Source: a virus
Virus record (IMG/VR): IMGVR_UViG_3300020445_000983
Location: 1 to 64,000 of that record
Length of the DNA: 64,000 nt
Direction: 5' to 3' (one strand)
Of the stretch, positions 2,902 to 60,511 are shown one piece after another. A program made the position numbers and the translations under genes. The notes beneath the pieces are model-generated. The model was not told where the DNA came from. It saw nothing but the letters and a program-made list of their open reading frames with translations, and did not search any database. Numbering within the stretch: the first letter of the stretch is position 1; the number at the start of each line of letters is the position of its first letter.

Positions 2902-5900
2902 GATCGGAGAGTGCAATCACTCTCAAGTTCTTAACTATAGGAACGAAAGATTGGTTGGAAGAACTAAGTAAGATCTTAACCTGAGCTATTGTAAACTCTG
3001 GTGTATCTAAAGAATATTCGAAGTCTCTATATAAAAGATCTTCGGTCTTCTGTATACTCTTATCTTCTAAACCATTACCATTGAAGTATGTAAAACCTAT
3101 TTCATCTACAGAGAGTGTAGTTCCGATAGGTACTATCTTATACATTACACGAATCTCAGTAGCAGGATGCCTCCAAGCTTCGAAACGTACCTTCAATGAG
3201 TTTGCTGGATTGAGCAAGTTAATAAGTTTGGTAATGTAGACTGCATCAGTCTTATCACCAGTATTCTTCTCAGCATCATTCTCACCAATTCCAAGGTTAT
3301 TAACCCTGTTCATAGTGGTGATTAGAGAACAACGGTCTGTATCAATAACAGGAGAAATACTCTTGTTAGTGGTTGTTAAAAGCATCTGAACGTTCAGAGA
3401 CTTAGAACCAGACAGTCTAGCGTCCTCGTTTACTTGAGAGCATACCAATTTAGGAGAATCAAAATAATTATCCTCATTGGCAATCATATCATAATATACA
3501 CCATCATTAATAAATGATGCCTCGTCAAGATTAGATCCATTTCTAATTGAGGTACCACTAACAATATTAATTCTAGGATCAATAGTTGTTTCAGGATACA
3601 CTGTCATTTGAAGTTGTGGATACACCTGATCGATCTGTACGTTCTGTGTAGCAGTTACATTACTACCACCAGTTGTAATACCAGATGTAGATACAGATGT
3701 TACAGCTAATTTATAGGAGTCTATAGTTGGAGCTCCAATTGCAGTGTGCAATTTGTTAATCTCCGTTAATGGAATACCATCTAAGTTATAACATTCAATA
3801 ATACTAGATGAACTATGTGCCAAAGCAGCAGTTCCACCTAATCCTCTTGAACCTGAAGGTAGAGTTATGATCTTACCGTCAGCAGAGATAGCACTATACT
3901 CACAGATCTCCCAATGCTGTGTTGGAATCTCAGGATCCCTAATAATAATAAAACCTTTGTTTGATGATCCAATTACTTCACCATTAATAATGGTATGGAA
4001 AGCAGCTGCATCAGCAACGTGAAGGGAGAATGTACTAGACACACCATCCGTGGCAGTAATACCATTGGTATGATATGCAGAGTCAATTACTGTTGGTGAG
4101 ACTTCAGAAACAACTCCTTCTAACTTAACTGAGTTAGAAACATCGTGCATACAATGGTTTGCGTGACGTACTGTAATTTCTGTTGCCTTATTGTAGTAAG
4201 AAATTGGAGCAGAAGGATACCTATTAATATCATCGCCACCAGCAACAACACCACTGGAAGCGATGGTACCCGATGCAACGGTTACTGAATCTACAACTTG
4301 TGTGATTGGATCTGCGTCAGCGAATGTACCAGTTACAGACTTGATAGTTACCTTAGAGGTACCAGCATCCCAAGCAGTAACGGTACCAGATGCACCAGAT
4401 CCATTAGTAATTTGTTCAGCTAACTGGAATGTACCAGATACACCAGTTAACGTAATCTCAGCAGTTGATCTAGAAGATACCAAACGATAAATGTATGTTG
4501 AACCTGATGAAACACCTTGACGGAATGCTCCGACTAGATCATCAAGAATCAAATATGCATTAGATGAACCAGATACACCCTGTACAACCTCTCTGACAAT
4601 AGCAGATGGTGCAGGTGAAGTATCAGTCTGTGTAAGTTCAGCACCGATAGTGAAGTTAGCTAAGTGATTATCAAGGATAACCTTAACTTCTGGTTTAGTA
4701 GTCTCAACTGGATTGAGTCTTAATGGAGCAATACCACCATTACCAATTGCTAGTTCAGCATTATTGAACCACGCTGTACCAGTCTGGTTTGGTGTAAACT
4801 CCGCTTTATATAATATAAACTTAAGGTCTTCATACTGGTCAGCAGTCCAAGTAGATGCGTTCTGTGACTTGAATAGTACACCAGCATAAGGCTGTTCAGA
4901 TATGGTTCTATCACTGGTTACATCGTCTTCACCCATTCGAGAGATCCAAAGCTTATACTCGTTGGAGTCAGATAGAACAACAACGCAATAATCACGATTC
5001 TCTGTAGTATAAACTGGAGAAGGGAAGGTAAACTTCGTAGGAATTGTACCATTTTCTGATAGATTTATTTGGCTAGGAAGTAGAGTAACGTCAGAGAAAG
5101 CAAGAACTTTAGTGGTAGGATAACCATTAGCCATTTCCCTAACCTGTACCGAGACAGGAATTCTTTCATCTCTTGTTCTGAAGTAAAGGTCTACTGATGT
5201 TATGAATGCACCACCCTTAGATTCAACCAAGAATGATTGTGCAAGAGGGTCATACCAACCTGTGTCTCTAACACTGGTTGTTGTAGCATTAACAACTCTA
5301 TCCTGAGTTACTGTATCTCTTACAATATCTGCATTTCTAACTGCAAGGATGGTCTGTTGCTTGGTCTCGATAACTCCAGATGCAACATAATTGTGTTGTG
5401 CAGCAGAATCAACTTCACCAGGTACTCTAGAGTCAGTAGCAGAAGTGGTAATACGTACAACACGAGTACCAGTTGCAAATCTTGGGTTAGTAGATACAGC
5501 AGGATTAGGAATCCAGATAATACCATCAAGGTTACCATTAGTATCTGATATCAAACGCTTAGGTTTAACAACAGAACGAGCACCAGAGGTAGAACCAACT
5601 AGGATCTCACCCTCTAATGGGTTACCATAATATGCACCAGCAACTGTCTCAGACATTGTTTGTATATCAATGTTGAGTAATGGTGTAGTAGATGCATAAG
5701 ATGTTGGTAGATCTGAAGTATCGTATGGTGATTTACCATCATCAAATCCTGTCTCAGGACTGATCAACTTCAATCTACATCCAGATGTCTGTCCAACAAC
5801 TGTCTCTCCAACAACATAAGGAGTATCATTTGTTCTAATATCCTCGACAGTATTCTTAATAACCTCAATCAACTTAGGAGTTGTATAGAAGTTAATATTA

Positions 5901-43227: not shown

Positions 43228-45321
43228 TTAGAAGCAGGTATCGAAGTCTGGATATTCGAATACCGTGGTTGGATAATCAATGATATTTATCGAGGTTCCA
43301 TCGAAGTTAATTGCGGTAAAGTCGAATGGATCGAATGTTGGAATATTACTTCCATCAATTGTGTAATCAATAGTAATTACTTGTGGGTTAAAGATAGTAG
43401 GATCGACACCTGTACCGATGTTGACATTACCAGCAGAAAGAATTACTGTAATGGGAATACGATCTGTACCATCTGGAGTTTGCTGTACACTTATAGGACC
43501 CAAACAAACTTGTCCAGTCTTATAGTTAACTGTTCCAACCCCTTGCTTCAAAACAACTTCTGCCTCATCCAGTTTAGTAACCATAATCAAAGAACCTTTA
43601 CCGTCATCGCGAACGTTGACAGGTAAAAGTGCTGAAGTATCATTCTCAATGAATGTACTTGTACTTAAAACAGAATTGGTAGTAAGTTGTTGACTCTGTA
43701 CGGCAAGATTAAGTAAATTCTCCGTATATCCTGTAGAATAGAAAATACCTGATTTAACAGCCGAGAATTTGGGTTCACAGGTAGATCCTGTACCACCTGC
43801 ACCAGTAGTACCACCTGAAACATCACTAGGATTCAAAATTTCATTACCAAAGTCAACGCACTGAGTAAATGTTGACCCAAATGGGAACCCAGTAACGTTC
43901 ATACCCAATGTCATCGTAGTAGTATTACCACTGATAGCATTATCAGAAGAATCAACCATAGTCTGAAATGCAGAACCATCGATTCTTCCATTAAATCTAT
44001 TCGCTGACCCTTGAGAATTGTATTGATCTATAGCACCCAGTACCTTCGTAGCAACTTCGTTATTGGATTGTGCTGTCTTAGTTCCGTCAAAGAAGACATA
44101 AGACTTAGGACGAATGTACAATGTTGTAGGATCAATGATGACTGGCTCAATAGCAGCCATTGAATACTTCAAAAGATCTGTTTTTATGCGCTTCTTGGTA
44201 GTTTCGTTTAAATTTGCACCGCTCTTAGTTCTTATGGCAATGTAAACCTTCCCATATACGGGTGGATATACACGCTCACCACCATATGCCGTTACAGACT
44301 TTGCTGATGGATAAACGTTTTTAGTGATATATTCGTAGTCAGACTCTGTGACTGCCCTATTCTGGGATGAATATGCCCTTGGAGCGTTATACTTGATGCT
44401 TATAATATCTTCTCCTTCTTCACCAGACTGTGACGCATCTACAGTTGCCAATGATATGTTACCAGCTGGTACTAAGCGTCCTGTATTGTCAACTACGCGC
44501 CCAATAAAGTTAAATTTCTTACATCCGTTTGCTGCTGAACCATCTGTGCGTACATAGCGCATCTTAATGACTTCACCTGCAATCAGTTCGCGGCAAATAA
44601 TACCATCTCCGAAAATAACCTGATATCTAAGGTCATCAGTTTCCTCAAGGAAGTAACCACGAGTAGTTCCATCGACATTAACAATGTTGGTAACACGATT
44701 ATAAGTGTCGATCTCCTCTGACTGTGCGTTAGGTGAGATAGAAACATACAGTAACTCTGTATCAACATTATCAACAGGAATCTCATACTTACGTTGTTTT
44801 ACATCAGTTACGGTATACTTGTATTCTAATAGGTTACCTTGATATATTACTGTCTTCTTGAAATTAGCAATACCACTAGATTGATCTACAGCAGCACTAA
44901 TATCATTAGGTACAGTAAAGATGTATGATTGACCATCTACCGCAGACATAAAGACATCTCCTTTAGGGAGTGTACACTGTGCGGGATATATGGCACTATC
45001 ACCAACAAATGTTGTTTGTACAGAGAAATTGATACACGCTTTAGATGCTTTAATAGATCTTGGTGTGTAATTTAACTGCTTTGCTATCTTAACTACGTTA
45101 TCACGAATAGTGGCAGACTCAAGGAATGCCTCGTTCATACTCATATTCGCGTTAAACGAAGAGTAGTATGTGTTATATGCTAAAACATCTAATAGGTATG
45201 AAGCGGCTGAACCATCAAAGTCGTAATCGGTAAACTCTGTTCTAGTTCGAAGGTACGACCTAATAGACTCTTTAATTTCACTAAAGTCTAGGGATGTTAA
45301 ATTGGATGGTATCGCAGCCAT
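43228..45321 (-). CDS. gp6: Baseplate wedge subunit gp6
   Basis: T4 gp6 / baseplate J-like protein, 697 aa against 660 in T4. The N-terminal segment, with DFSEIKESIRSYLRT, FDGSAASYLLDVLAYNTYY and MNEAFLESATIRDNVVKIAK, is the conserved family core, followed by LNYTPRSIKAS. The middle carries VTESDYEYITKNVYPSAKSV and GKVYIAIRTKSG, again typical of the J-like fold. Role: forms the inner ring of the baseplate by joining wedges and takes part in sheath contraction. It is directly followed by the giant gene and preceded 4 bp upstream by gp25, the T4 order. Confidence 0.93.
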   Translation of the reverse strand: MAAIPSNLTSLDFSEIKESIRSYLRTRTEFTDYDFDGSAASYLLDVLAYNTYYSSFNANMSMNEAFLESATIRDNVVKIAKQLNYTPRSIKASKACINFSVQTTFVGDSAIYPAQCTLPKGDVFMSAVDGQSYIFTVPNDISAAVDQSSGIANFKKTVIYQGNLLEYKYTVTDVKQRKYEIPVDNVDTELLYVSISPNAQSEEIDTYNRVTNIVNVDGTTRGYFLEETDDLRYQVIFGDGIICRELIAGEVIKMRYVRTDGSAANGCKKFNFIGRVVDNTGRLVPAGNISLATVDASQSGEEGEDIISIKYNAPRAYSSQNRAVTESDYEYITKNVYPSAKSVTAYGGERVYPPVYGKVYIAIRTKSGANLNETTKKRIKTDLLKYSMAAIEPVIIDPTTLYIRPKSYVFFDGTKTAQSNNEVATKVLGAIDQYNSQGSANRFNGRIDGSAFQTMVDSSDNAISGNTTTMTLGMNVTGFPFGSTFTQCVDFGNEILNPSDVSGGTTGAGGTGSTCEPKFSAVKSGIFYSTGYTENLLNLAVQSQQLTTNSVLSTSTFIENDTSALLPVNVRDDGKGSLIMVTKLDEAEVVLKQGVGTVNYKTGQVCLGPISVQQTPDGTDRIPITVILSAGNVNIGTGVDPTIFNPQVITIDYTIDGSNIPTFDPFDFTAINFDGTSINIIDYPTTVFEYPDFDTCF
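43284..43291 (-). promoter_or_regulatory. Late promoter variant GATAAATA
   Basis: ATAAATA core inside the 3' end of gp6, 71 bp before the giant gene; a possible separate late promoter for it. Confidence 0.45.
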
Positions 45322-46650: not shown

Positions 46651-49600
46651 TACTTAACGTCAAATGTTAAATCGCACTCATCAAAATATGGGTTACCAAA
46701 AGTATTTAGTGAATCGTCTAATAATGTTGCACCTGCGCCGCCCCAGTTCCTATAGTTGAGAGACCCCTCATAAGGTCCCATTTCCATATGGTTCTCTGCA
46801 TTAACCAATTTAGGGGGAACAGCAATTGCAGCGTGTGTAACCTCTTCTAGTGCCTTTCCACAAGGTGATGCTACAACAGGTGGTGAAGAACAAGGATTAT
46901 CTGCTGCTATTGCATTACCATCGCTATCATAACCTGCATTTACATCCAAAACACCATCTACAACAAAATTGTGCCAGCACGGATTAGGGAATTTACCACC
47001 AGAACAACTTGATAAGGTTACACTATTGTAGGTTACAGTGTTAGTTTGTCCTGTAGGTTGACCGTTACCATCAACTTGTTGCTGTACTATAGTCTGTGTA
47101 GCCCATCCAGTGTAATTTCCAGCACCAGCCCACGTTTCAAACTGCTCAAGTTCGGTCATATTTGAAAGTCCGTAATCATATGTCTGCTCATCCCCTCCAA
47201 TTGGAGCAAAAGTGTACTGTCCTGGAGAAGATTCGTAACATCTTCCCTTTGCTTGACCATTACTACAAGGGTGTGAGTTCTTAATATCACCTGAAATCTC
47301 GGTAACACGTGGTCTTAATGTGGCAGGATCACCCATACTCTTCAAGAAATTGAGAAATTCCGTGTTTGCAGTTGCTCCAGCACCAGAGACATCACCTTCA
47401 AATTGTATACTAACTCGAATTCTTGCCATTTCTCGCTTAGAACCGCAATATTTAAAGGGCATATACCCAAATACCTTCTCAACTCCGTTTTCATCTAATG
47501 AAGTATACGGACAAGGTATGTCAAAAAAGCGTCTAACCTGATACATTTTAGGTTGTCCCACCTCTACACATCCGCTAGGGTAGATTCCTGCCATCCCAGA
47601 AGACATTTTTTTCTCTACGGTACCTGAAACTGGTGCAGATTGCTTCCAAGTATTGCTAATCCACTCATTATTGGTGTTCCAATCTGGCGCAAGTGTCCTT
47701 AGTTGTCCAAAAACTGCCTCTTCATCCCAATTTCTAGCCCAATCTGTCCAACCTACACCTGAATCTGGCTGAAAACAGTTATTTGGAATAACTTCACCAC
47801 AGAATTTCGTCTTTTCTTCTGTATCAACATCCGTCATTGTCAAATATCCACGCTTTACACTCGTTTCTTTGTTCTTATTGTACTCTTCGAACATACCTTG
47901 CATATCTTTTCTGTTCGATTCTAGTTTTTGGTTGGCTTCAGGAGCATCTCCACCAAATTTTTCAGTAGATTTAGCAAATTCGTTCTCATATGGTAGGTTT
48001 CCTTCACCCACAAAGGTATCAACACGAGTATCTGACTCTCTATCAACCACAACAATACGAGGTACAAAGTTGGGAGGGTACCCATCACCAGCATCCGTAA
48101 TTATAACTTGATCAATACAACCTAATTCATCCACTGTTGCTCTAACTTTAGCTTGTTTTAGCACTCCAGTGAAGTCTGACTCAGTAGTGTACTGTTGATT
48201 ACTAATATCTGCAGCAGTTTGACGGAAATTATCTTCAGAACGTCCGTAATCAAGTGTATTAGTCATCTCTAACTGCACTTCTGTCGAAGTATCGCTAGTA
48301 AAAGACTCATTTACGTTTTTTGCGGGATCTATGAACCCCTGATCACGTAAAACTTCGGGAATTTCAATAGAAATCTCTGGAGACTTGTATCCAGACCCCG
48401 CATTAATGATTTGTATACTCGCTAACTTACCCTGAGCATTTGTAATTCCGTGCATTTCTGCTACATCAATAGATCTTTGAGGAATTAGTGCATCTGGGTC
48501 AACATTGACTCTAGTATATGCTACTTTCTTCGGAAATTCATATACACCAAATACTGCACCTTTATCTTGTATACCAAAACCAGCTAGCGCAATAATAGTA
48601 CCACTATTTTGTGAGGTATACGTATTATTGTACACAAATGCGCCACCATTGCCTTCTGCTTGTAATTGTGTCAATTCCATATACCCACAATTCATCTCAT
48701 CACCAAAATATCGCACTGCAGTAATCATCCATCCGTTAATACGCTCTCCTATAGCAAAGAATCCCGTAGATGAAGTATATCTGAAGAATAAACGATGATC
48801 ATCAGTACCAGCAGTCCAAAATGACTCTGCTCCACCTGGAGTTTGGTCGGGAACGTCCACAAATAGCCTTGTTTTCTTCGTTACCCACGCAGATTCCTTA
48901 ATTTGGTAATTATATGAGTGAAAATCACGTGTTACTGTACAAGGATCGTTTTGATAGTCTTGTTGGCAACAATTTGCATCAGAAGTAACCATATTAATGC
49001 CATATATGGGTCCATTCCACGGATATGACGCATCATAGAGGTAATATACGAATTGACCCTCAAAAGCGTCGTGAAAACCGAGGAATTTGGGCACAGCTGC
49101 CTTAACTGCCCCATTTTTGCCATAAAACCACTCAAAATGGGCAGAATCGGTCAATATTTCGGCATTATCGGGGTCTCCCCACCCTTTTACGCAAGGAACG
49201 TCCCCTTTTTCGAGCAAATAGTCGTCTGTAGTGAAGGTTCCGTTCTGTTGGTAGTCCCAATCGTACCATCCACTCCTATCAACTTCACCAGTGTCGTGTG
49301 GTTTTCCAACTTCTATGATTCTTGCACTCTTTCTTGGTCCAGTTGAAGTCATCACATAACCCACTATCCCAACATATTGGTACTCTTCATTCATAGGGTC
49401 TTTGGGGTCAGGGAGACCAGGAACACCTGTCTGAAGGTTAACCTCGAATTGTGGTCTTAGAGTATAGAGGTGATCTGGTCCTTTGTAGTTGGCAGGAGCA
49501 AGGTACTCTAGTAATGGTAGGACTTGTTCTCCTGGTACCAGTGTCCCAGATGCTACTGCTGCTGCTTCAGATGTGAAAATATATCCTAGTAGTTCTTGTC

Positions 49601-53162: not shown

Positions 53163-53495
53163 CTAACTCCACTTGAGATTGTTATAATTATCATTCAATT
53201 TATCACCGTCTATATGTAAAACATTCCTGCAATCGTTCGTAGTTGGTATAAATGCGGAAGCACATAATCGGGCAATTCTTCTTACTACGGTCTTACCATT
53301 TTGCCTTAATGTAACACGTCTATATCCATTTTCATTTAAATGTGTCTTTAATTGCCTCCATTTTCCATACTTAGCAGAATAAACTGTACCATCGCTATCT
53401 ATAAAATAGTCCTCGTAATCTGGTATCTGTTTGTATACATTACCATCAGCATCTTTGTAGGTGTTGTTATCAACTTTAGTGAATAAGTAAGTCAT
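53163..53495 (-). CDS. NUMOD4-HNH endonuclease, short form (110 aa)
   Basis: Residues about 22-50 form a NUMOD4 DNA-binding motif (IPDYEDYFIDSDGTVYSAK); residues about 55-85 the linking beta hairpin (NGYRRVTLRQNGKT); residues 92-109 the HNH core (VLHIDGDKLNDNYNNLKW). These are free-standing homing endonucleases common in phages. The protein stops two residues after the NLKW motif, whereas family members normally continue with a segment ending E-N-x-x-H-A; it may be truncated. It lies between the 2OG oxygenase gene and the gene-free region, as expected for an inserted mobile gene. Confidence 0.8.
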   Translation of the reverse strand: MTYLFTKVDNNTYKDADGNVYKQIPDYEDYFIDSDGTVYSAKYGKWRQLKTHLNENGYRRVTLRQNGKTVVRRIARLCASAFIPTTNDCRNVLHIDGDKLNDNYNNLKWS

Positions 53496-54151: not shown

Positions 54152-54180
54152 TGTTGTTAATTATAAAAGGACAATAAAAA

Positions 54181-54204
54181 AGAGGGAAATATTTAATTCC
54201 CTCT
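54181..54204 (-). terminator. Intrinsic terminator
   Basis: Perfect 8-bp stem AGAGGGAA/TTCCCTCT with an 8-base loop, followed on the minus strand by a T-rich run. It ends the transcript of the 47-aa gene and lies immediately downstream of the -10 of the next promoter. Confidence 0.85.
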
Positions 54205-54234
54205 ATTATATAGTACTGATTGATACCTTGTCAA
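54205..54234 (-). promoter_or_regulatory. Consensus sigma70 promoter
   Basis: Minus strand TTGACA, 18 bp, TATAAT: both hexamers perfect. The expected start (about 54198) lies inside the upstream arm of the adjacent terminator, so transcripts begun here should not form the full hairpin. Drives the 212-aa 2OG oxygenase gene. Confidence 0.85.
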
Positions 54235-54241
54235 CTGTAAT

Positions 54242-54410: not shown

Positions 54411-54734
54411 TTAGTCTAGTAACATACCACTAACAAATGGGATTGATGTCTTATCTGATAGTCTGAAGTACCAAGTCCAGTCTTTCTGATATACACCTTC
54501 ACCCCATTTTCCGACCGCTTCGATAATAGCGTTAAGGCGGGATTTAGTGGTGTTTGATTGCCAACCTCCGTCAAATAGGCGGAAATCGATTCTACTTACC
54601 TCAGCAATTTTGTTGCCGTGTAAGTATACACTAGCGTTGTTAGTCTCAGGATCAATTTGTACACTTGTGTTGGAAGATTGCCAGTTAGTTCTGTTAAGAA
54701 TTGCTTGGTTCATTTGGGATTCAATCTTTCTCAT
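54411..54734 (-). CDS. Conserved phage hypothetical protein (107 aa)
   Basis: Starts at ATG 54732-54734 (MRKIESQMNQAILNRTNW). Motifs VYLHGNKIAEV, FRLFDGGWQSNTTKSRLNAI and FVSGMLLD belong to a small protein found in many phages and plasmids; function unknown. An in-frame extension to 54833 exists but translates the 45-bp promoter-like element, so it is not protein. Position 28 bp after that element's -10 fits regulated expression. Confidence 0.8.
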   Translation of the reverse strand: MRKIESQMNQAILNRTNWQSSNTSVQIDPETNNASVYLHGNKIAEVSRIDFRLFDGGWQSNTTKSRLNAIIEAVGKWGEGVYQKDWTWYFRLSDKTSIPFVSGMLLD

Positions 54735-54761: not shown

Positions 54762-54806
54762 ATAATAGGCGATCAGAGGGGTAAATGGGGGAAATGTGTG
54801 TAGGTT
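54762..54806 (-). promoter_or_regulatory. 45-bp promoter-like element, copy 1
   Basis: Minus strand: invariant AACCTACACACA box (54795-54806), CCATTT segment, TTTACC, exactly 12 bp, TATTAT (54762-54767). 28 bp before the 107-aa gene. See copies at 55886, 57188 and 58393. Confidence 0.75.
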
Positions 54807-54829
54807 ATCTAATTGGCACACTTCCCAGG

Positions 54830-55153
54830 TCAAATGGTGTCATCCTCTGCTAATTTCTTAAATGCCTGATCCATATGAAATGTTGGGTTCATTGAATCAA
54901 CCAAATGATCCACACATTCTCTATAATCAGTGCCATTTGTTATGCACTTCTGTACATCATTAGCAGTGTAATTACCCTCGTAATTATCACAAACTGATTC
55001 TAATGCTGAGAAGATGTTATCAACATCAAGAGAGAAATTGCCTCCTTGATTGTAATCATCATTGCCATCAATGTATCCTTCTAAACAGTAAAGAATTGTA
55101 GAGATTTCGTTACCTGTTAGTGTAACATTGTGGACTGAATCTTCAAAACTCAT
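54830..55153 (-). CDS. Hypothetical protein (107 aa)
   Basis: Acidic, with no recognised domain; starts MSFEDSVHNVTLTGNEISTI followed by LYCLEGYIDGNDD. Three Cys residues lie in the second half. The ATG overlaps the previous gene's stop by one base (TAATG), so translation is probably coupled. Confidence 0.75.
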   Translation of the reverse strand: MSFEDSVHNVTLTGNEISTILYCLEGYIDGNDDYNQGGNFSLDVDNIFSALESVCDNYEGNYTANDVQKCITNGTDYRECVDHLVDSMNPTFHMDQAFKKLAEDDTI

Positions 55154-55371
55154 TAATACTCCTCCTGTGCAATAAATGGGGTAATGTTATCATTAGTGAC
55201 CTTATATCCTGTCACCTCAGCATTAACGTAATCCTGGGAATCATCATCCCTAATTGAATGATTGGAGTTCAAATAGCATTGAATTTCTTCTGCTAAGTGT
55301 ACAGGATTGAGGGCATCTTCACTATCATATACTATACGAAATGTGAAGTCTTTAACTAATACTTTAGTCAT
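55153..55371 (-). CDS. Hypothetical protein (72 aa)
   Basis: Starts MTKVLVKDFTFRIVYDSEDA; mixed alpha/beta character (strand, a helix at HLAEEIQCYL, then strands VNAEVTGYKV). Function unknown. Overlaps the upstream gene by 8 bp and the downstream one by 1 bp. Confidence 0.75.
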   Translation of the reverse strand: MTKVLVKDFTFRIVYDSEDALNPVHLAEEIQCYLNSNHSIRDDDSQDYVNAEVTGYKVTNDNITPFIAQEEY

Positions 55372-55573
55372 CTAATTCCTCCTCTAATTGTGTTAAGTCG
55401 TTGAGGAATAACCACTCGTACTTATCACTTGGATCTTTGCCATCTACAACATATTCTGAATAGATAGCGTCCGCATCTTCGTACATATCGAAGTCAACAA
55501 AGGTGCGTAATTTGCACAAGTAATTATCTTCTAAGAGACGAATACTTGCTTCTCTGTGTGTTACCACGTCCAT
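55364..55573 (-). CDS. Hypothetical acidic protein (69 aa)
   Basis: Start chosen at ATG 55571-55573 (MDVVTHREASIRLLEDNYLC) because an AGGAG ribosome-binding site lies nine bases upstream; the in-frame ATG at 55582 would sit directly on it. Helical and acidic with a run of acidic residues at the C-terminus (TQLEEELDD). Function unknown. Confidence 0.75.
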   Translation of the reverse strand: MDVVTHREASIRLLEDNYLCKLRTFVDFDMYEDADAIYSEYVVDGKDPSDKYEWLFLNDLTQLEEELDD

Positions 55574-55586
55574 TGAATTCATCTCC

Positions 55587-55859
55587 TTAATAGTTAGAAA
55601 GTGTACGATAGGGTTTGTGTACATATTGTACACAATTAGGGAATAGAGATAACATCATATCTCTTACTCTTTCACGGTCTACACTATCACCACCTCCCCA
55701 AGTATAGCGAGGATGGTTAATCTTAGCAGCACTGATTAGAGTCTTACGATATTGCCCATAAGCAGCAAATAAGCGTTCTTTAGTACATCCAGCGATAGGA
55801 TATAACCCATCATCAGTGTTATAAAAAGAATAGCAATAATCAATGAATTCTTGGATCAT
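55587..55859 (-). CDS. Hypothetical protein (90 aa)
   Basis: Starts MIQEFIDYCYSFYNTDDGLY; the middle contains a Gly-rich turn (YTWGGGDSVDRERVRDMM) and a C-terminal Cys. No family recognised. It is the first gene after the second 45-bp element (27 bp from its -10) and is followed 14 bp later by the 69-aa gene. Confidence 0.75.
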   Translation of the reverse strand: MIQEFIDYCYSFYNTDDGLYPIAGCTKERLFAAYGQYRKTLISAAKINHPRYTWGGGDSVDRERVRDMMLSLFPNCVQYVHKPYRTLSNY

Positions 55860-55885
55860 AAGGTTTGAATTTCGTTGTTATGTAT

Positions 55886-55930
55886 ACAATAGAGCATTTG
55901 ATAGGCAAATGGGGAAAATGTGTGTAGGTT
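55886..55930 (-). promoter_or_regulatory. 45-bp promoter-like element, copy 2
   Basis: Minus strand AACCTACACACA (55919-55930), CCATTT, TTTGCC, 12 bp, TATTGT (55886-55891). The AACC box overlaps the stop codon of the zinc-ribbon gene. 27 bp before the 90-aa gene. Confidence 0.75.
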
Positions 55931-56096
55931 AGTGTACTGTCACACCCCACTCGTATTTGTCTATACTTTTGTGGCAGACTTGACAGGTTAATGCACACCA
56001 AGCAAAATGAAATACCCTTGCATTGTTATTACAATGTGGGCATACTATTTGTTTGCCGTTAACACCTGCACGAGTGAATCTGTTAACTAAGTTCAT
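55929..56096 (-). CDS. Zinc-ribbon protein (55 aa)
   Basis: ATG 56094-56096 to TAA 55929-55931. C19-x2-C22 (IVCPHCNN) and C38-x2-C41 (TCQVCHK) form a two-knuckle zinc ribbon; the start MNLVNRFTRAGVNGKQIV is familiar from small cyanophage proteins. Probably a nucleic-acid-binding or protein-interaction factor; target unknown. It starts by ATGA overlap with the 45-aa gene, and its stop lies in the second 45-bp element. Confidence 0.8.
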   Translation of the reverse strand: MNLVNRFTRAGVNGKQIVCPHCNNNARVFHFAWCALTCQVCHKSIDKYEWGVTVH

Positions 56097-56230
56097 AGAA
56101 TTAATGCAAGTTTACGTTTGATAGTGTTCCAAAATTCATTCTCATTATCATCAATGAGATCAATTTGTTCGAGATTGATTAATACATTGAGTGCATCAAT
56201 CTCTTCAGTTGTTAGTATATTATCAGGCAT
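56093..56230 (-). CDS. Small hypothetical protein (45 aa)
   Basis: Start at ATG 56228-56230 (MPDNILTTEEIDALNVLINL), set by a TAATG overlap with the upstream gene. Helical and acidic, ending KRKLALIL. Function unknown. A longer reading with non-ATG start to 56287 lies wholly inside the neighbour and is discounted. Confidence 0.7.
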   Translation of the reverse strand: MPDNILTTEEIDALNVLINLEQIDLIDDNENEFWNTIKRKLALIL

Positions 56231-56460
56231 TATAGACCATCCTTGATTGTTAATGAGTTTGCGTGATTCCAGAGGTTGTTTAAACAAAATGAATGAATTG
56301 CGAAGAGATCATTCATATTAACCCCACTCAAATCGTCCCACTCTGAAACATAATCTTGATTGTCAAAATCACCTGTTCCATTATCATATTGTGGGCAAGA
56401 TCTGAAATCTTGGTTATCATCAACCCAGAATAGTCTTCCGAAAGATTTACTGTGAAACAT
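56230..56460 (-). CDS. Hypothetical protein (76 aa)
   Basis: Starts MFHSKSFGRLFWVDDNQDFR with an AAGGAG ribosome-binding site eight bases upstream. Rich in Asp/Asn and aromatic residues; no domain recognised. Overlaps the next gene by one base. Confidence 0.75.
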   Translation of the reverse strand: MFHSKSFGRLFWVDDNQDFRSCPQYDNGTGDFDNQDYVSEWDDLSGVNMNDLFAIHSFCLNNLWNHANSLTIKDGL

Positions 56461-56482
56461 TGCTAATTCTCCTTAATAGTGT

Positions 56483-56644
56483 TTACTGATCTGCAATTAT
56501 ATCCCATACTGAGATATAATTTAATAACCAAGTTCTTTGGTCATTTGTGACATTTTGAGTGTACAATATGTCATCCGCAGATTGTAACTCAAGAGAGTTC
56601 AATTTGCAGTAGTCATATAATACATCTGAGAGGAAATTTAGCAT
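56483..56644 (-). CDS. Cyanophage-type hypothetical protein (53 aa)
   Basis: Start chosen at ATG 56642-56644 (MLNFLSDVLYDYCKLNSLEL); the longer frame to 56683 would translate the terminator hairpin. Helical, with NDQRTWLLNYISVWD near the end; similar to small conserved cyanophage proteins. Function unknown. Confidence 0.7.
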   Translation of the reverse strand: MLNFLSDVLYDYCKLNSLELQSADDILYTQNVTNDQRTWLLNYISVWDIIADQ

Positions 56645-56661
56645 AATAAAAGTTATATAAA

Positions 56662-56683
56662 ATGGGGTGCAAAAGCACCCCAT
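56662..56683 (-). terminator. Intrinsic terminator
   Basis: Perfect 9-bp stem ATGGGGTGC/GCACCCCAT with a 4-base loop, followed on the minus strand by TTTATATAACTTTT. Ends the unit containing the 34-aa gene. Confidence 0.85.
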
Positions 56684-56691
56684 AAGTGTAA

Positions 56692-56796
56692 TTAAACCTC
56701 GGTTTGTAGATACTCAAGATAACGATCAATTACTTGGAGTAATTCGTTACCATTTGAGGCATCTTCGAGTTGTGCAAAAAGTGATGGATTTGCCAT
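56692..56796 (-). CDS. Very small protein (34 aa)
   Basis: ATG 56794-56796 to TAA 56692-56694; product MANPSLFAQLEDASNGNELL, then QVIDRYLEYLQTEV. Amphipathic helix; placed directly before a strong terminator. Function unknown; called on coding-like composition and position only. Confidence 0.5.
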   Translation of the reverse strand: MANPSLFAQLEDASNGNELLQVIDRYLEYLQTEV

Positions 56797-56948
56797 TTTA
56801 AATGAGCGAGGTTAACAGTTGAAAGAAGGACTTACACTCAATGATTGATGTTAGCACTCACACTAACCCATTGGATGCCTTTATTGTTGGGACTTACACG
56901 AATTGGCGTTTAGCAACTAAATGCTTGCGAGATCAATGCCCAACGAGA
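56797..56948. other. Gene-free gap with short repeat
   Basis: No open frame with coding character. GTGTAAGTCC occurs twice on the minus strand (around 56831-56840 and 56891-56900), with a weaker GTGTGAGTGC between. Could be leader or regulatory RNA sequence; nothing firmer can be said. Confidence 0.4.
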
Positions 56949-57011
56949 TCAGAGAGGATAGTGTTTGATGTACTCTAGGATCTCATCATAGTCAAATTCA
57001 AGTTGCATCAT
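56949..57011 (-). CDS. Possible 20-aa microprotein
   Basis: ATGATG start overlapping the stop of the 50-aa gene, product MMQLEFDYDEILEYIKHYPL. Coupled start and regular amphipathic composition are the only support. Confidence 0.3.
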   Translation of the reverse strand: MMQLEFDYDEILEYIKHYPL

Positions 57012-57160
57012 CTGGAATAGTATAGGGTGAACTCGGTGAGGATCTTGGGTGAAGGTCGGAAGATGACTGGTTGGAGTCGTTGAGCGATCCGATCAAAGAA
57101 GATATAGGAACGATCTTCCCATTTCTTGTAAGATCCCCATTTCTTGTCTTTGAAGGTCAT
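57008..57160 (-). CDS. Small basic protein (50 aa)
   Basis: ATG 57158-57160 to TGA 57008-57010. Starts MTFKDKKWGSYKKWEDRSY; basic and aromatic, middle FDRIAQRLQPVIFRPSP. Function unknown. It is the first gene after the third 45-bp promoter-like element, 28 bp from its -10, the same spacing as copies 1 and 2, which supports the call. Confidence 0.6.
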   Translation of the reverse strand: MTFKDKKWGSYKKWEDRSYIFFDRIAQRLQPVIFRPSPKILTEFTLYYSR

Positions 57161-57187
57161 TTGGGTTGTTCCCTTGTTGACTTCTTA

Positions 57188-57232
57188 ATAATAGGCGATC
57201 AGGTGGGTAAATGGTGAAACTGTGTGTAGGTT
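57188..57232 (-). promoter_or_regulatory. 45-bp promoter-like element, copy 3
   Basis: Minus strand AACCTACACACA (57221-57232), CCATTT, TTTACC, 12 bp, TATTAT (57188-57193). Shares TGATCGCCTATTAT with copy 1. 28 bp before the 50-aa gene. Confidence 0.75.
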
Positions 57233-57234
57233 GT

Positions 57235-57498
57235 TCAACCGTCACAGTCTGGACAATCTCCAGAATCTTCTACAGTACCATCATTACATCCTATGCAACG
57301 ATTTTTATGTAGAATCCTCTGCTGCTCTAGTATCACTGACTCGTGATAATCGAACAGTCTTTCGATCTTATCCTGTATGCTCCTGAATAGGTCAGTATCC
57401 TCTTTATTGTCTGATACTGCTATGGCATCACTCAACAGTTGATCTATGGTCACATAGTCCTCGTCCGAGAACTCCACGAAATCTCTATAGGTCTTCAT
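57235..57498 (-). CDS. Hypothetical protein with C-terminal zinc knuckle (87 aa)
   Basis: Starts MKTYRDFVEFSDEDYVTIDQ; helical and acidic to residue 65, then a four-Cys tail (RCIGCNDGT ... GDCPDCDG) resembling half of a DnaJ-type zinc-binding motif. Its start overlaps the nuclease-like gene by 4 bp (ATGA). Function unknown; zinc binding is likely from the CxxC pairs. Confidence 0.75.
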   Translation of the reverse strand: MKTYRDFVEFSDEDYVTIDQLLSDAIAVSDNKEDTDLFRSIQDKIERLFDYHESVILEQQRILHKNRCIGCNDGTVEDSGDCPDCDG

Positions 57499-58016
57499 AG
57501 CACTTGAACTCCGTACTGTCTGATTAGTTTGTTAGGGATAGTGTACCCTAGGCGAGGATCTTTTCTGTTGCTGGTGCTCTCAAATTGTCTCTTGAGATTT
57601 GGCACAAGGATATCAAGCACTTGTTGTGCGGTCATCCTGTACACTTCAACAACCTTGCCGAGGTGATAGCGTGCGAAGAAATGGTGATGATATTTACCAA
57701 TTTTCTCCTCACGTAGGTATTTAACCTGCTTTTCCCAGGTCTCCTGTACACTGATACCATTATAGGTCGCTGTAAGTTTCTTGCCTATGGTTGACTTGTA
57801 CTCTACAGGTCTATCATTCTCATCATAGGCATCTGCACCAGAATAGTCATCTGCTACGCTATGACCTAGCAGACCAGCAAGGTGTATTTCTCTACTGCGT
57901 GCATAACTGAAGGGATCACCCCAGTTCTGAGCATCACAGAGTTCATACATCTGCTCAAAGAGTTCTTGGTATTGTTGCTCTGGTGTGGTCACTGGAATTG
58001 TGAAAGAAGGGGACAT
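57495..58016 (-). CDS. PD-(D/E)XK nuclease-like protein (173 aa)
   Basis: Start at ATG 58014-58016 (MSPSFTIPVTTPEQQYQELF). The catalytic signature of PD-(D/E)XK nucleases is visible: E43 (REIHLAGLLG), D62 (DDYSGADAYDENDRP) and E72-x-K74 (PVEYKST), on the expected helix, hairpin and strand. The second half is helical and basic (NLKRQFESTSNRKDPR) and could bind DNA. It may be a restriction-type or host-DNA-degrading endonuclease. A DNA methyltransferase gene lies 3.5 kb upstream. A longer frame to 58199 would overlap the neighbouring gene and is rejected. Confidence 0.65.
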   Translation of the reverse strand: MSPSFTIPVTTPEQQYQELFEQMYELCDAQNWGDPFSYARSREIHLAGLLGHSVADDYSGADAYDENDRPVEYKSTIGKKLTATYNGISVQETWEKQVKYLREEKIGKYHHHFFARYHLGKVVEVYRMTAQQVLDILVPNLKRQFESTSNRKDPRLGYTIPNKLIRQYGVQVL

Positions 58017-58044
58017 AATAAAATGTAGTAAAAAAGACCTGTGC

Positions 58045-58227
58045 CTACTGGCAGAGATCTTCAAATCGTTGTTGTGCTTCTTGGATGATGCACTCAAGTG
58101 TACCTGATTTGTTTCTCCAGCAAAGTTCGTTGAGTTGATCTTCGGTGAGTTCATTAGCGATTCTGAACTCTTCCCAGACTTCATCGTGAAGTTGCTCAAG
58201 AATCATTTCATTCTGAAGGACTGACAT
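58045..58227 (-). CDS. Hypothetical protein (60 aa)
   Basis: Starts MSVLQNEMILEQLHDEVWEE; helical and acidic with two Cys (NELCWRNKSGTLECI). Directly abuts the stop of the 52-aa gene (TAAATG). Function unknown. Confidence 0.75.
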   Translation of the reverse strand: MSVLQNEMILEQLHDEVWEEFRIANELTEDQLNELCWRNKSGTLECIIQEAQQRFEDLCQ

Positions 58228-58386
58228 TTAAGCAACCTCCTTAGCGTCAAGAACTGCGTCCCATAGTTTGTCGAACTGGTCGCAGTGCTCGCTGGTCTCC
58301 TGAAGGTCAAGGTCAGCGATAGTTGAAAAGAGATCAGTGAGTAGTTCGTGCTGATCTTGAGAGAGTTGTAGTGTAACGTTGTTCAT
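58228..58386 (-). CDS. Hypothetical protein (52 aa), possibly leaderless
   Basis: Start at ATG 58384-58386 (MNNVTLQLSQDQHELLTDLF); helical and acidic. The fourth 45-bp element ends only 6 bp upstream, so transcription would begin almost at the A of the ATG. No other in-frame ATG or ribosome-binding site exists. An extension to 58461 only translates the element. Confidence 0.7.
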   Translation of the reverse strand: MNNVTLQLSQDQHELLTDLFSTIADLDLQETSEHCDQFDKLWDAVLDAKEVA

Positions 58387-58392
58387 ATTGTT

Positions 58393-58437
58393 AATATAGT
58401 CGATTTTAGGGTCAAATGGTAAAAGTGTGTGTAGGTT
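58393..58437 (-). promoter_or_regulatory. 45-bp promoter-like element, copy 4
   Basis: Minus strand AACCTACACACA (58426-58437), CCATTT, TTTGAC, 12 bp, TATATT (58393-58398). Lies 7 bp before the 52-aa gene. Confidence 0.75.
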
Positions 58438-58450
58438 AGTCAACTGGCAC

Positions 58451-59143: not shown

Positions 59144-60385
59144 CTATCTACGAACTACTCTAGGTGGGATACCATCAACAAAGATATTGTCAATTACTTT
59201 CTGCAACCTATTAATAGTTCTTGTACCATATTCTTTATGAATTGGTACAGTAACATAACCAGTAGGTTTGGCATAGAATTTCATCTCACCTGCTTTTATC
59301 CTTCCCTCATTGATACTTTGCCTATCTCTTTTATCCATACGAATAACACGACCTACAGTCTGTGCCATTTCAACTAGATTTAAGGTGCGTAATAATATGC
59401 AGTGAGTAAGACCTGGGACAGAGATACCCTCACTAAGTATACTATAATGAAAGACAATAAACTTGCGGTTAATGTCACTACCATAGTCTCTAAGTGTGTT
59501 GAAAAATATATCTCTCTTAACTTTCTTATCATTGACATAAGCACCGAACTTACTGGTAATATGTAGTACATCATACCCTCTACTTCTTAACTCATTGAGT
59601 ATAGTAGTATGACCGAGGATATTACTTAGCACCTTAGAAGATGGTACACTAACTAACACCTTACCAGACTTATCTTTAGGTAGGTTGTTAAGTATATCTT
59701 GAATAGTAATGCTATGATGTATATGCTGTCTTTCTTTTACAAAATGTAAATCAGTCTCAAAAGGTACAATAGTAGGTGATACTATGCTACCGTTGTTAAT
59801 TAACTCTTTTGCCTGTACATTCTCTAATACATTACCATAAACTAAACTGTTATTCATCCCCCTATTATTACCAGAAGAAAGAACAGGAGTAGCAGTAAAG
59901 TAATAGGATTGAACAGCAACATCAGACATAGAAGCAACACTAGGAAAGAAATTGCGTTTCGTAGAGTTATGTGCCTCGTCAAAATAGCAGCAATCAATAT
60001 TAATATTAGCAGATAGAATACGTCCAAGTGAGTGATATGTAGCGAAGATCAATTTAGGTCTCTTCCAGTTATTAACAGCAAAGTCATATATCTCAGTTGA
60101 GTTAGTAGTTTGCTGGTGTTTTGTATCTCCTGAGTGTACGTGAAGCACACCAGAATATGTCTTAATAACTGATAAGAATTCCTCACATAGTTGTTGTGCT
60201 AATAATATTCTAGGTGCAACAACTACAATAGTTCTAGTATTATCGTGCTCTAGTAATTGCTTGGCGTGCTGTATCATAATCATAGTCTTTCCACCACCAG
60301 TGGGAACTATGACCTGACCCTTGTCAGCGTCAAACATACTATTTAAAGCACGTTGTTGATGTGGACGTAAGACGATCAATTTCAA
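59144..60385 (-). CDS. uvsW: UvsW-like SF2 DNA helicase (413 aa)
   Basis: Motifs in order: Q-like LRPHQQRAL (6-14), Walker A PTGGGKT (28-34), Ia VVAPRILLAQQL, DEAH box DEAH (136-139), motif III TATP (164-167), motif V-like ILSEGISVPG, motif VI QTVGRVIR (342-349). T4 UvsW is an ATP-dependent helicase/annealase that unwinds R-loops and branched DNA and switches replication from origin- to recombination-dependent; the same role is likely. The start appears to be TTG at 60385, since the nearby ATG (60392) is out of frame. An inverted repeat lies upstream. It could equally be called a generic DEAD/DEAH phage helicase. Confidence 0.8.
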   Translation of the reverse strand: MKLIVLRPHQQRALNSMFDADKGQVIVPTGGGKTMIMIQHAKQLLEHDNTRTIVVVAPRILLAQQLCEEFLSVIKTYSGVLHVHSGDTKHQQTTNSTEIYDFAVNNWKRPKLIFATYHSLGRILSANINIDCCYFDEAHNSTKRNFFPSVASMSDVAVQSYYFTATPVLSSGNNRGMNNSLVYGNVLENVQAKELINNGSIVSPTIVPFETDLHFVKERQHIHHSITIQDILNNLPKDKSGKVLVSVPSSKVLSNILGHTTILNELRSRGYDVLHITSKFGAYVNDKKVKRDIFFNTLRDYGSDINRKFIVFHYSILSEGISVPGLTHCILLRTLNLVEMAQTVGRVIRMDKRDRQSINEGRIKAGEMKFYAKPTGYVTVPIHKEYGTRTINRLQKVIDNIFVDGIPPRVVRR

Positions 60386-60426: not shown

Positions 60427-60445
60427 TCACGATTTGATGTGACAG

Positions 60446-60511
60446 TTAGTCGATTGTCTTCCTTCTCAGGTGGTACCGCATCAACAACTCATATATTTTA
60501 TCAAGGATCAT
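60446..60511 (-). CDS. Possible 21-aa microprotein
   Basis: ATG overlapping the stop of the 46-aa gene (ATGA); product MILDKIYELLMRYHLRRKTI plus Asp. Basic amphipathic helix. Supported only by the coupled start. Confidence 0.35.
   Translation of the reverse strand: MILDKIYELLMRYHLRRKTID

Follow-up and report, generated by a model that had tools for sequence, protein, structure and literature searches.

A rigidly spaced inverted-repeat promoter element common to T4-like cyanophages and host Yfr2 small-RNA genes: a possible operator of a host GntR-family regulator

Background

Several systems described in T4-like phages and in cyanobacteria resemble, in one respect or another, a promoter-like element that recurs in a 64,000-nucleotide stretch of viral DNA (hereafter the window), which forms the first 64 kb of virus record IMGVR_UViG_3300020445_000983, a fragment of 84,879 bases. 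Doron et al. are said to have described, in 2016, a novel regulatory element that controls early genes of the cyanophages Syn9 and P-TIM40 and is conserved among T4-like cyanophages. On the host side, the CGRE1 motif of yfr2 promoters is reportedly bound by the protein PMM1637, a finding attributed to Lambrecht (2018), while T4-like phages are said to carry promoter-terminator cassettes termed PeSL, attributed to Arbiol (2010) and Comeau (2014). T4 middle promoters, finally, combine a single MotA box near -30, located 12-13 bp before the -10, with the -10 itself.

The element in the window consists of an inverted repeat and a -10 at a fixed distance from it, and this predicted promoter architecture (repeat, rigid 30-bp spacer, -10) is very well supported by the comparisons presented below. 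Its four copies almost certainly act as promoters. We read them, together with a fifth, as early promoters that would recruit a host GntR-family regulator at the operator-like repeat, and place the probability of this reading at roughly 0.7. The broader proposal, that T4-like cyanophages start their first genes from operators of a redox- and light-linked host GntR regulator (PMM1637/Sll1961) using the geometry of the Yfr2 promoter, is one towards which we lean only slightly.

Like the element attributed to Doron et al., the repeat occurs in Syn9 and P-TIM40 and across T4-like cyanophages, and it is probably that same early element; the window copies differ in having a variant right half-site. 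Host Cyano-1/Yfr2 genes, presumed to carry CGRE1, share the repeat, and its distance from the transcript start matches as well, whereas the phage copies precede protein genes and are more symmetric than their host counterparts.

Methods

Occurrences of the repeat in cultured phages were counted with up to 3 mismatches to the consensus, using the reversed pattern as a control. A position-specific matrix covering the repeat and the -10, with a gap of 30 or 31 bp and a cut-off of 18 bits, was trained only on cultured T4-like cyanophages, the present record being excluded.

Results and discussion

Layout of the element in the window

A first-pass annotation of the window had described an invariant 12-mer, AACCTACACACA, in four copies, and all four were recovered as exact matches on the minus strand (54795-54806, 55919-55930, 57221-57232, and 58426-58437), with no further copy across the record, even when one mismatch was allowed. 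Random occurrences within genes were looked for, and the elements proved to be intergenic. The rigid layout attributed to them holds, with 45 bp spanned between the 12-mer's first A and the final base of the -10 in 4/4 copies, and the predicted -10 hexamers read TATTAT, TATTGT, TATTAT, and TATATT in copies 1 to 4. Three copies had been placed 27-28 bp before a start codon, which is accurate to within about a base (-10-to-ATG gaps of 27, 26, 27, and 6 bp), and both these gaps and the lack of a fixed -35 in the spacer agree with the original description of a promoter-like element, without a -35, ahead of start codons.

The 12-mer is just one half, the right-hand one, of a 22-bp inverted repeat: immediately upstream stands GTG(A/C)C.., a mirror image of the 12-mer's end, and the symmetry is clearest in copy 3 (TGTGACGGTTG-AA-CAACCTACACA). 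Measured from this repeat, the -10 lies at a distance of exactly 30 bp in 5/5 elements of the record, the fifth being an element at 60439-60460 which the count of four had overlooked and which has a different right half-site. In the four window copies the right half-site is AACCTACAC, which departs from the consensus, and this variant is widespread among viral-contig sites. The 45-bp stretch stands as described, but the conserved region is longer: the four copies are alike beyond the promoter and form an 83-nt family at 66-75% identity in a repeat search. Similarly, the CCATTT that had been made part of the element is present in these four copies and in some relatives but is not a general feature. 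Neither the 12-mer nor CCATTT was therefore retained as the core, which is the repeat, CCATTT being local. A looser pattern, AACCTACACA-N8-CATTT, matched 78 viral-contig stretches; because it ignores the left half-site, these matches were judged to be mostly chance and were not used.

The five elements and the genes that follow them are listed below in window coordinates; bits are matrix scores.

54798..54819 (-): copy 1, operator-like inverted repeat, GTGCCAATT-AGAT-AACCTACAC; 23.2 bits including the -10
54762..54767 (-): copy 1, -10, TATTAT, 30 bp after the repeat
54411..54734 (-): gene after copy 1, Kyano_Gp96 family (PF23790, phrog_554), 107 aa
55922..55943 (-): copy 2, inverted repeat, GTGACAGTA-CACT-AACCTACAC; 18.3 bits
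55886..55891 (-): copy 2, -10, TATTGT
55587..55859 (-): first gene after copy 2, 90 aa, phrog_7799; heads a run of small open reading frames (ORFs) down to 54830
57224..57245 (-): copy 3, inverted repeat, GTGACGGTT-GAAC-AACCTACAC; 19.8 bits
57188..57193 (-): copy 3, -10, TATTAT
57008..57160 (-): gene after copy 3, 50 aa, no match in a family search
58429..58450 (-): copy 4, inverted repeat, GTGCCAGTT-GACT-AACCTACAC; 26.0 bits, the best family match
58393..58398 (-): copy 4, -10, TATATT
58228..58386 (-): first gene after copy 4, 52 aa, no family match; first of a series of small ORFs reaching down to 57235
60439..60460 (-): fifth element, inverted repeat, AAGACAATC-GACT-AACTGTCAC, with a family-type right half-site; 21.9 bits
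60403..60408 (-): fifth element, -10, TATTGT, 30 bp downstream of the repeat
59144..60385 (-): DNA helicase gene after the fifth element, phrog_16, with a TTG start at 60385

The true start of the gene after copy 1 is probably the ATG at 54734. A helicase gene of Syn9 (gp75, start 49158) likewise has an element just upstream, at 49079.

Conservation among T4-like cyanophages

The consensus obtained from cultured phages is GTG(A/C)CAGTT-N4-AACTG(G/T)CAC, followed by a TATAAT-like -10. The repeat is found 2-25 times per genome in 11/11 cultured cyanomyoviruses, compared with 0-3 times for the reversed control, and is absent, with the same tolerance of 3 mismatches, from T4 and from the Microcystis phage Ma-LMM01. 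Across 8 cyanophage genomes, this record included, the distance between repeat and -10 has a single sharp peak (30 bp in 45 cases, 31 bp in 14) over a background of mostly 0-4 cases at each other offset, orthologous and duplicated copies in such counts not being independent.

With the matrix, exactly five sites in the record exceed 18 bits, namely the four copies and the element at 60439-60460, against a mean of 0.2 in dinucleotide shuffles, and the four copies are therefore not attributable to chance. Their inverted repeats taken alone have 3-4 mismatches out of 18 and score 15.5-18.7 bits on the matrix trained without them. When viral contigs were searched for the repeat pattern without any -10, 111 stretches matched, most of which show the repeat, the fixed gap, a -10, and an ATG. 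A TAnnnT hexamer is located at 29-31 bp in 45/79 distinct sites, and many of the remainder carry CATACT- or CATATT-like hexamers at the same place, as judged by eye.

In 73 unique elements, information is concentrated in the repeat and the -10, the spacer holding less than 0.5 bit at every position except its first base; some members carry TTGA(C/T) at the place of a -35, although the spacer has no fixed -35, and, counted from the first base of the -10, the ATG is most often found 27-33 bp downstream. Among five close relatives, the half-sites and the -10s are invariant, while the repeat-proximal half of the spacer varies (7/60 positions) with no indels. In Syn9 and P-TIM40 the element occurs before small genes of flexible regions. 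The marine virus AG-345-O18 resembles the region by BLAST, yet the element was not found there.

The matrix can be used to find such promoters in metagenomic cyanophages and to reveal mis-annotated start codons. In Syn9, the annotated starts of gp61 (44804), gp73 (48608), and gp183 (148771) lie upstream of the element's predicted -10, and the real starts are more likely the in-frame ATGs at 44855, 48641, and 148822, at the usual distance downstream. The freshwater cyanophage S-CRM01 has the most copies (25 palindromes, e.g. at 127442, 128836, 134498, and 149102), with a recurrent variant -10 context, TATGCTAGCTAAG, and one of its copies, at 130594, directly follows a tRNA-Gly gene.

The same layout at host Yfr2 genes

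In 386 cyanobacterial genomes, the repeat followed by N30-31 and TATNNT was found at 12 places, compared with 0 for the reversed pattern. When these spaced hits were pooled with earlier palindrome hits, 7 loci had a common downstream motif, GTG(T/A)GTGAGGAG, and the 4 of them run through Rfam were all identified as Cyano-1 RNA, starting 41-45 bp after the repeat. We take Cyano-1 to be the Yfr2 family, in keeping with its GUGUGAGGAG motif. A repeat ending 41-42 bp before the RNA corresponds to 30 + 6 + 5 or 6, which puts the RNA start at a normal distance after the -10. Cyanobacterial Cyano-1/Yfr2 loci have the repeat upstream in differing gene neighbourhoods, several beside purH, and it thus belongs to the small-RNA gene rather than to a neighbour.

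Among Cyano-1 genes in genomes below 3 Mb, which are taken from their size to be picocyanobacteria, the best repeat match ends 35-42 bp upstream of the RNA in 26/29, a count that includes related, non-independent copies. The host repeats often combine a perfect left half, GTGACAGTT, with a degenerate right half. The first-pass annotation had suggested a phage-specific regulon; a phage regulon, mostly of small genes, fits these data, but its specificity does not, given that the element is common to all T4-like cyanophages scanned and to host Yfr2 promoters.

Only the version of the host searches with the spaced -10 is clearly informative. The exact palindrome alone matched 31 stretches of genome contigs, many of them non-cyanobacterial and without a spaced -10. 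Perfect palindromes lacking the spaced -10 also occur near other genes in the filamentous cyanobacteria Mojavia (positions 3108 and 5192) and Nostoc (two stretches), and are possibly further host GntR sites.

Probable recognition of the repeat as DNA

An inverted repeat could also act in RNA. If the units were mainly recombination cassettes of the PeSL type, the repeat would be a transcript-end hairpin, and this would accord with the similarity of the four copies beyond the promoter, which suggests duplication, with the folding of copies 1 and 3, which is better than that of shuffled sequences, and with the presence of a perfect stem of at least 5 bp in 10/73 family spacers, several followed by T-runs, versus 1.8 in shuffles. 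The two halves of the repeat, however, do not covary: 72 distinct repeats have 6.46 complementary positions per repeat, against 6.52 when halves are shuffled among sequences, which favours a repeat read as DNA, not RNA. Moreover, shuffles fold at least as well as copies 2 and 4 do, the window has no Rfam match, the spacers of the window copies contain no stem of at least 5 bp, and the exact spacing to the -10 would be left unexplained. The repeat as an RNA hairpin or terminator was rejected on the lack of covariation, the folding of two of the four copies, and the absence of an Rfam match, and the cassette explanation as a whole appears improbable. The evidence favours a symmetric protein that would recognise the repeat as DNA.

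The window units nevertheless share with PeSL cassettes their arrangement as repeated intergenic early promoters among small variable genes, and some family members share the terminator-like hairpins. By contrast, it is the operator-like palindrome that is conserved here. The hairpin is an optional feature, missing from the window copies; in members that have one, it is nested between operator and -10 with the spacing unchanged. A secondary role of the units in shuffling is possible.

Candidate readers of the repeat

The 12-bp spacing within the element had earlier been likened to a MotA box, with the remark that no MotA was visible. The remark is confirmed, given that the MotA domain (PF09114) was absent from this record, which is a fragment, and from six cyanophages, while T4, the positive control, was detected. 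The analogy is not supported: the determinant is palindromic, not a lone box, and instead of lying at -30 it is found about 42-63 bp ahead of the predicted start. A middle promoter of the T4 type, with an activator like MotA, would share the lack of a -35 and an upstream box at a fixed distance from the -10, but the palindrome ends 30 bp before the -10, is centred near -52, and is not found in T4 itself, and T4-like cyanophages are stated to lack T4-like middle promoters and motA/asiA (PMC5780444). In the strict sense this explanation is refuted by the missing protein and the different geometry, and even in a looser form we give it almost no credence.

In the reading that we prefer, the promoters would serve blocks of small early genes and the helicase gene. 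Each would comprise the 22-bp operator-like repeat and a TATAAT-like -10, separated by a spacer without set sequence that measures exactly 30 bp, or 31 in some relatives, and includes no fixed -35. This repeat would be the site of the host GntR regulator, PMM1637 in Prochlorococcus MED4 and Sll1961 in Synechocystis, the same regulator that the host would use at its own Yfr2 (Cyano-1) promoters. A GntR dimer near -52 would then recruit or stabilise host sigma-70-type RNA polymerase at a -10 that lacks a good -35, and early genes would fire at once, without any phage transcription factor. Binding of GntR to the phage copies, activation there, and the early timing of these genes are what we infer.

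PMC6778093 (2019) describes PMM1637 as a GntR-family regulator common to all cyanobacteria that binds promoters of yfr2 homologues with the CGRE1 motif, and as mediating the induction of Yfr2 in high light and on nitrogen starvation. In Synechocystis, the GntR protein Sll1961 forms a dimer, and thioredoxin M reduces its disulfide; the report gives no binding site for it (PMC5923263). A dimer fits the repeat, as a palindrome needs one.

Several points weigh against recruitment of a host GntR activator. The right half-site AACCTACAC of the window copies breaks perfect symmetry, host right half-sites are often degenerate, and the repeat is present at some but not all of the Cyano-1 genes of larger genomes. 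The putative equation of CGRE1 with the repeat is drawn from its position upstream of yfr2, and early timing is deduced from gene type, position, and the work reported on Syn9. Many GntR-family proteins, furthermore, are repressors.

The last point raises the alternative that host GntR, bound to the repeat as its operator, keeps phage promoters repressed until infection lifts the repression, and repression is what most of the family does. A site that lies 42-63 bp ahead of the predicted start and does not overlap the -10, always at the same distance and without a -35, has instead the geometry of an activator, and PMC6778093 describes Yfr2 induction as mediated by PMM1637; we regard repression as a quite unlikely account.

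More serious, though still unlikely, is the alternative that the promoter architecture is the same but the reader of the repeat is a protein encoded by the phage or delivered with the virion, the likeness to Yfr2 promoters being convergence or reflecting another host reader. The element is far commoner in phages than in hosts, a phage regulator could escape notice in a fragmentary record, and phages with injected factors exist. On the other hand, the host Yfr2 promoter has the same half-site (GTGACAGTT) and the same spacing, no GntR domain was found in any phage tested, and a host protein that binds yfr2 promoters exists (PMC6778093). Two other host sites, the cyanobacterial Pho box and the NtcA site (GTAN8TAC), did not match the repeat by eye, no scan having been run for either.

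Cyanophage infection is light-dependent. As Sll1961 is redox-linked and Yfr2 is light- and nitrogen-responsive, the phage may, by a further step of reasoning, sense host state via GntR. Were recruitment of host GntR correct, the onset of infection would be coupled to host light, thioredoxin, and nitrogen status, and numerous phage operators could titrate GntR off yfr2. It would also tie the first step of infection directly, and in a testable way, to photosynthetic redox state (PMC5923263, PMC6778093).

Virus identity and neighbouring features

The virus is a T4-like cyanophage related to P-SSM2 that infects marine cyanobacteria. Neighbouring genes encode baseplate wedge proteins (phrog_438, phrog_219), a PAAR-type protein, the DNA helicase, a DNA methyltransferase, endonuclease V, and 2OG-Fe(II) oxygenases, a set that identifies a T4-like cyanophage. 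In P-SSM2, too, gp7, gp6, and gp25 stand in that order ahead of a block of small ORFs, and DNA-level matches of the record in the phage collection are to cyanophages and marine viruses.

At 53163-53495 (-), a 110-aa ORF resembles, by eye and with no family search run, an HNH/NUMOD-type homing endonuclease. A textbook sigma-70 promoter (TTGACA, 18 bp, TATAAT) is located at 54170-54240 (-), upstream of a 2OG-Fe(II) oxygenase gene and directly followed by a terminator-like hairpin, GAGGGAATTAAATATTTCCCTC, with a T-run; it is a promoter type unlike the repeat element. At the position of the gp7-like baseplate protein, the window has an ORF of 8,862 aa at 16625-43213 (-), which is unusually long in that its counterparts in P-SSM2, Syn9, and P-TIM40 are shorter, at about 5,195, 6,076, and 7,351 aa, respectively.

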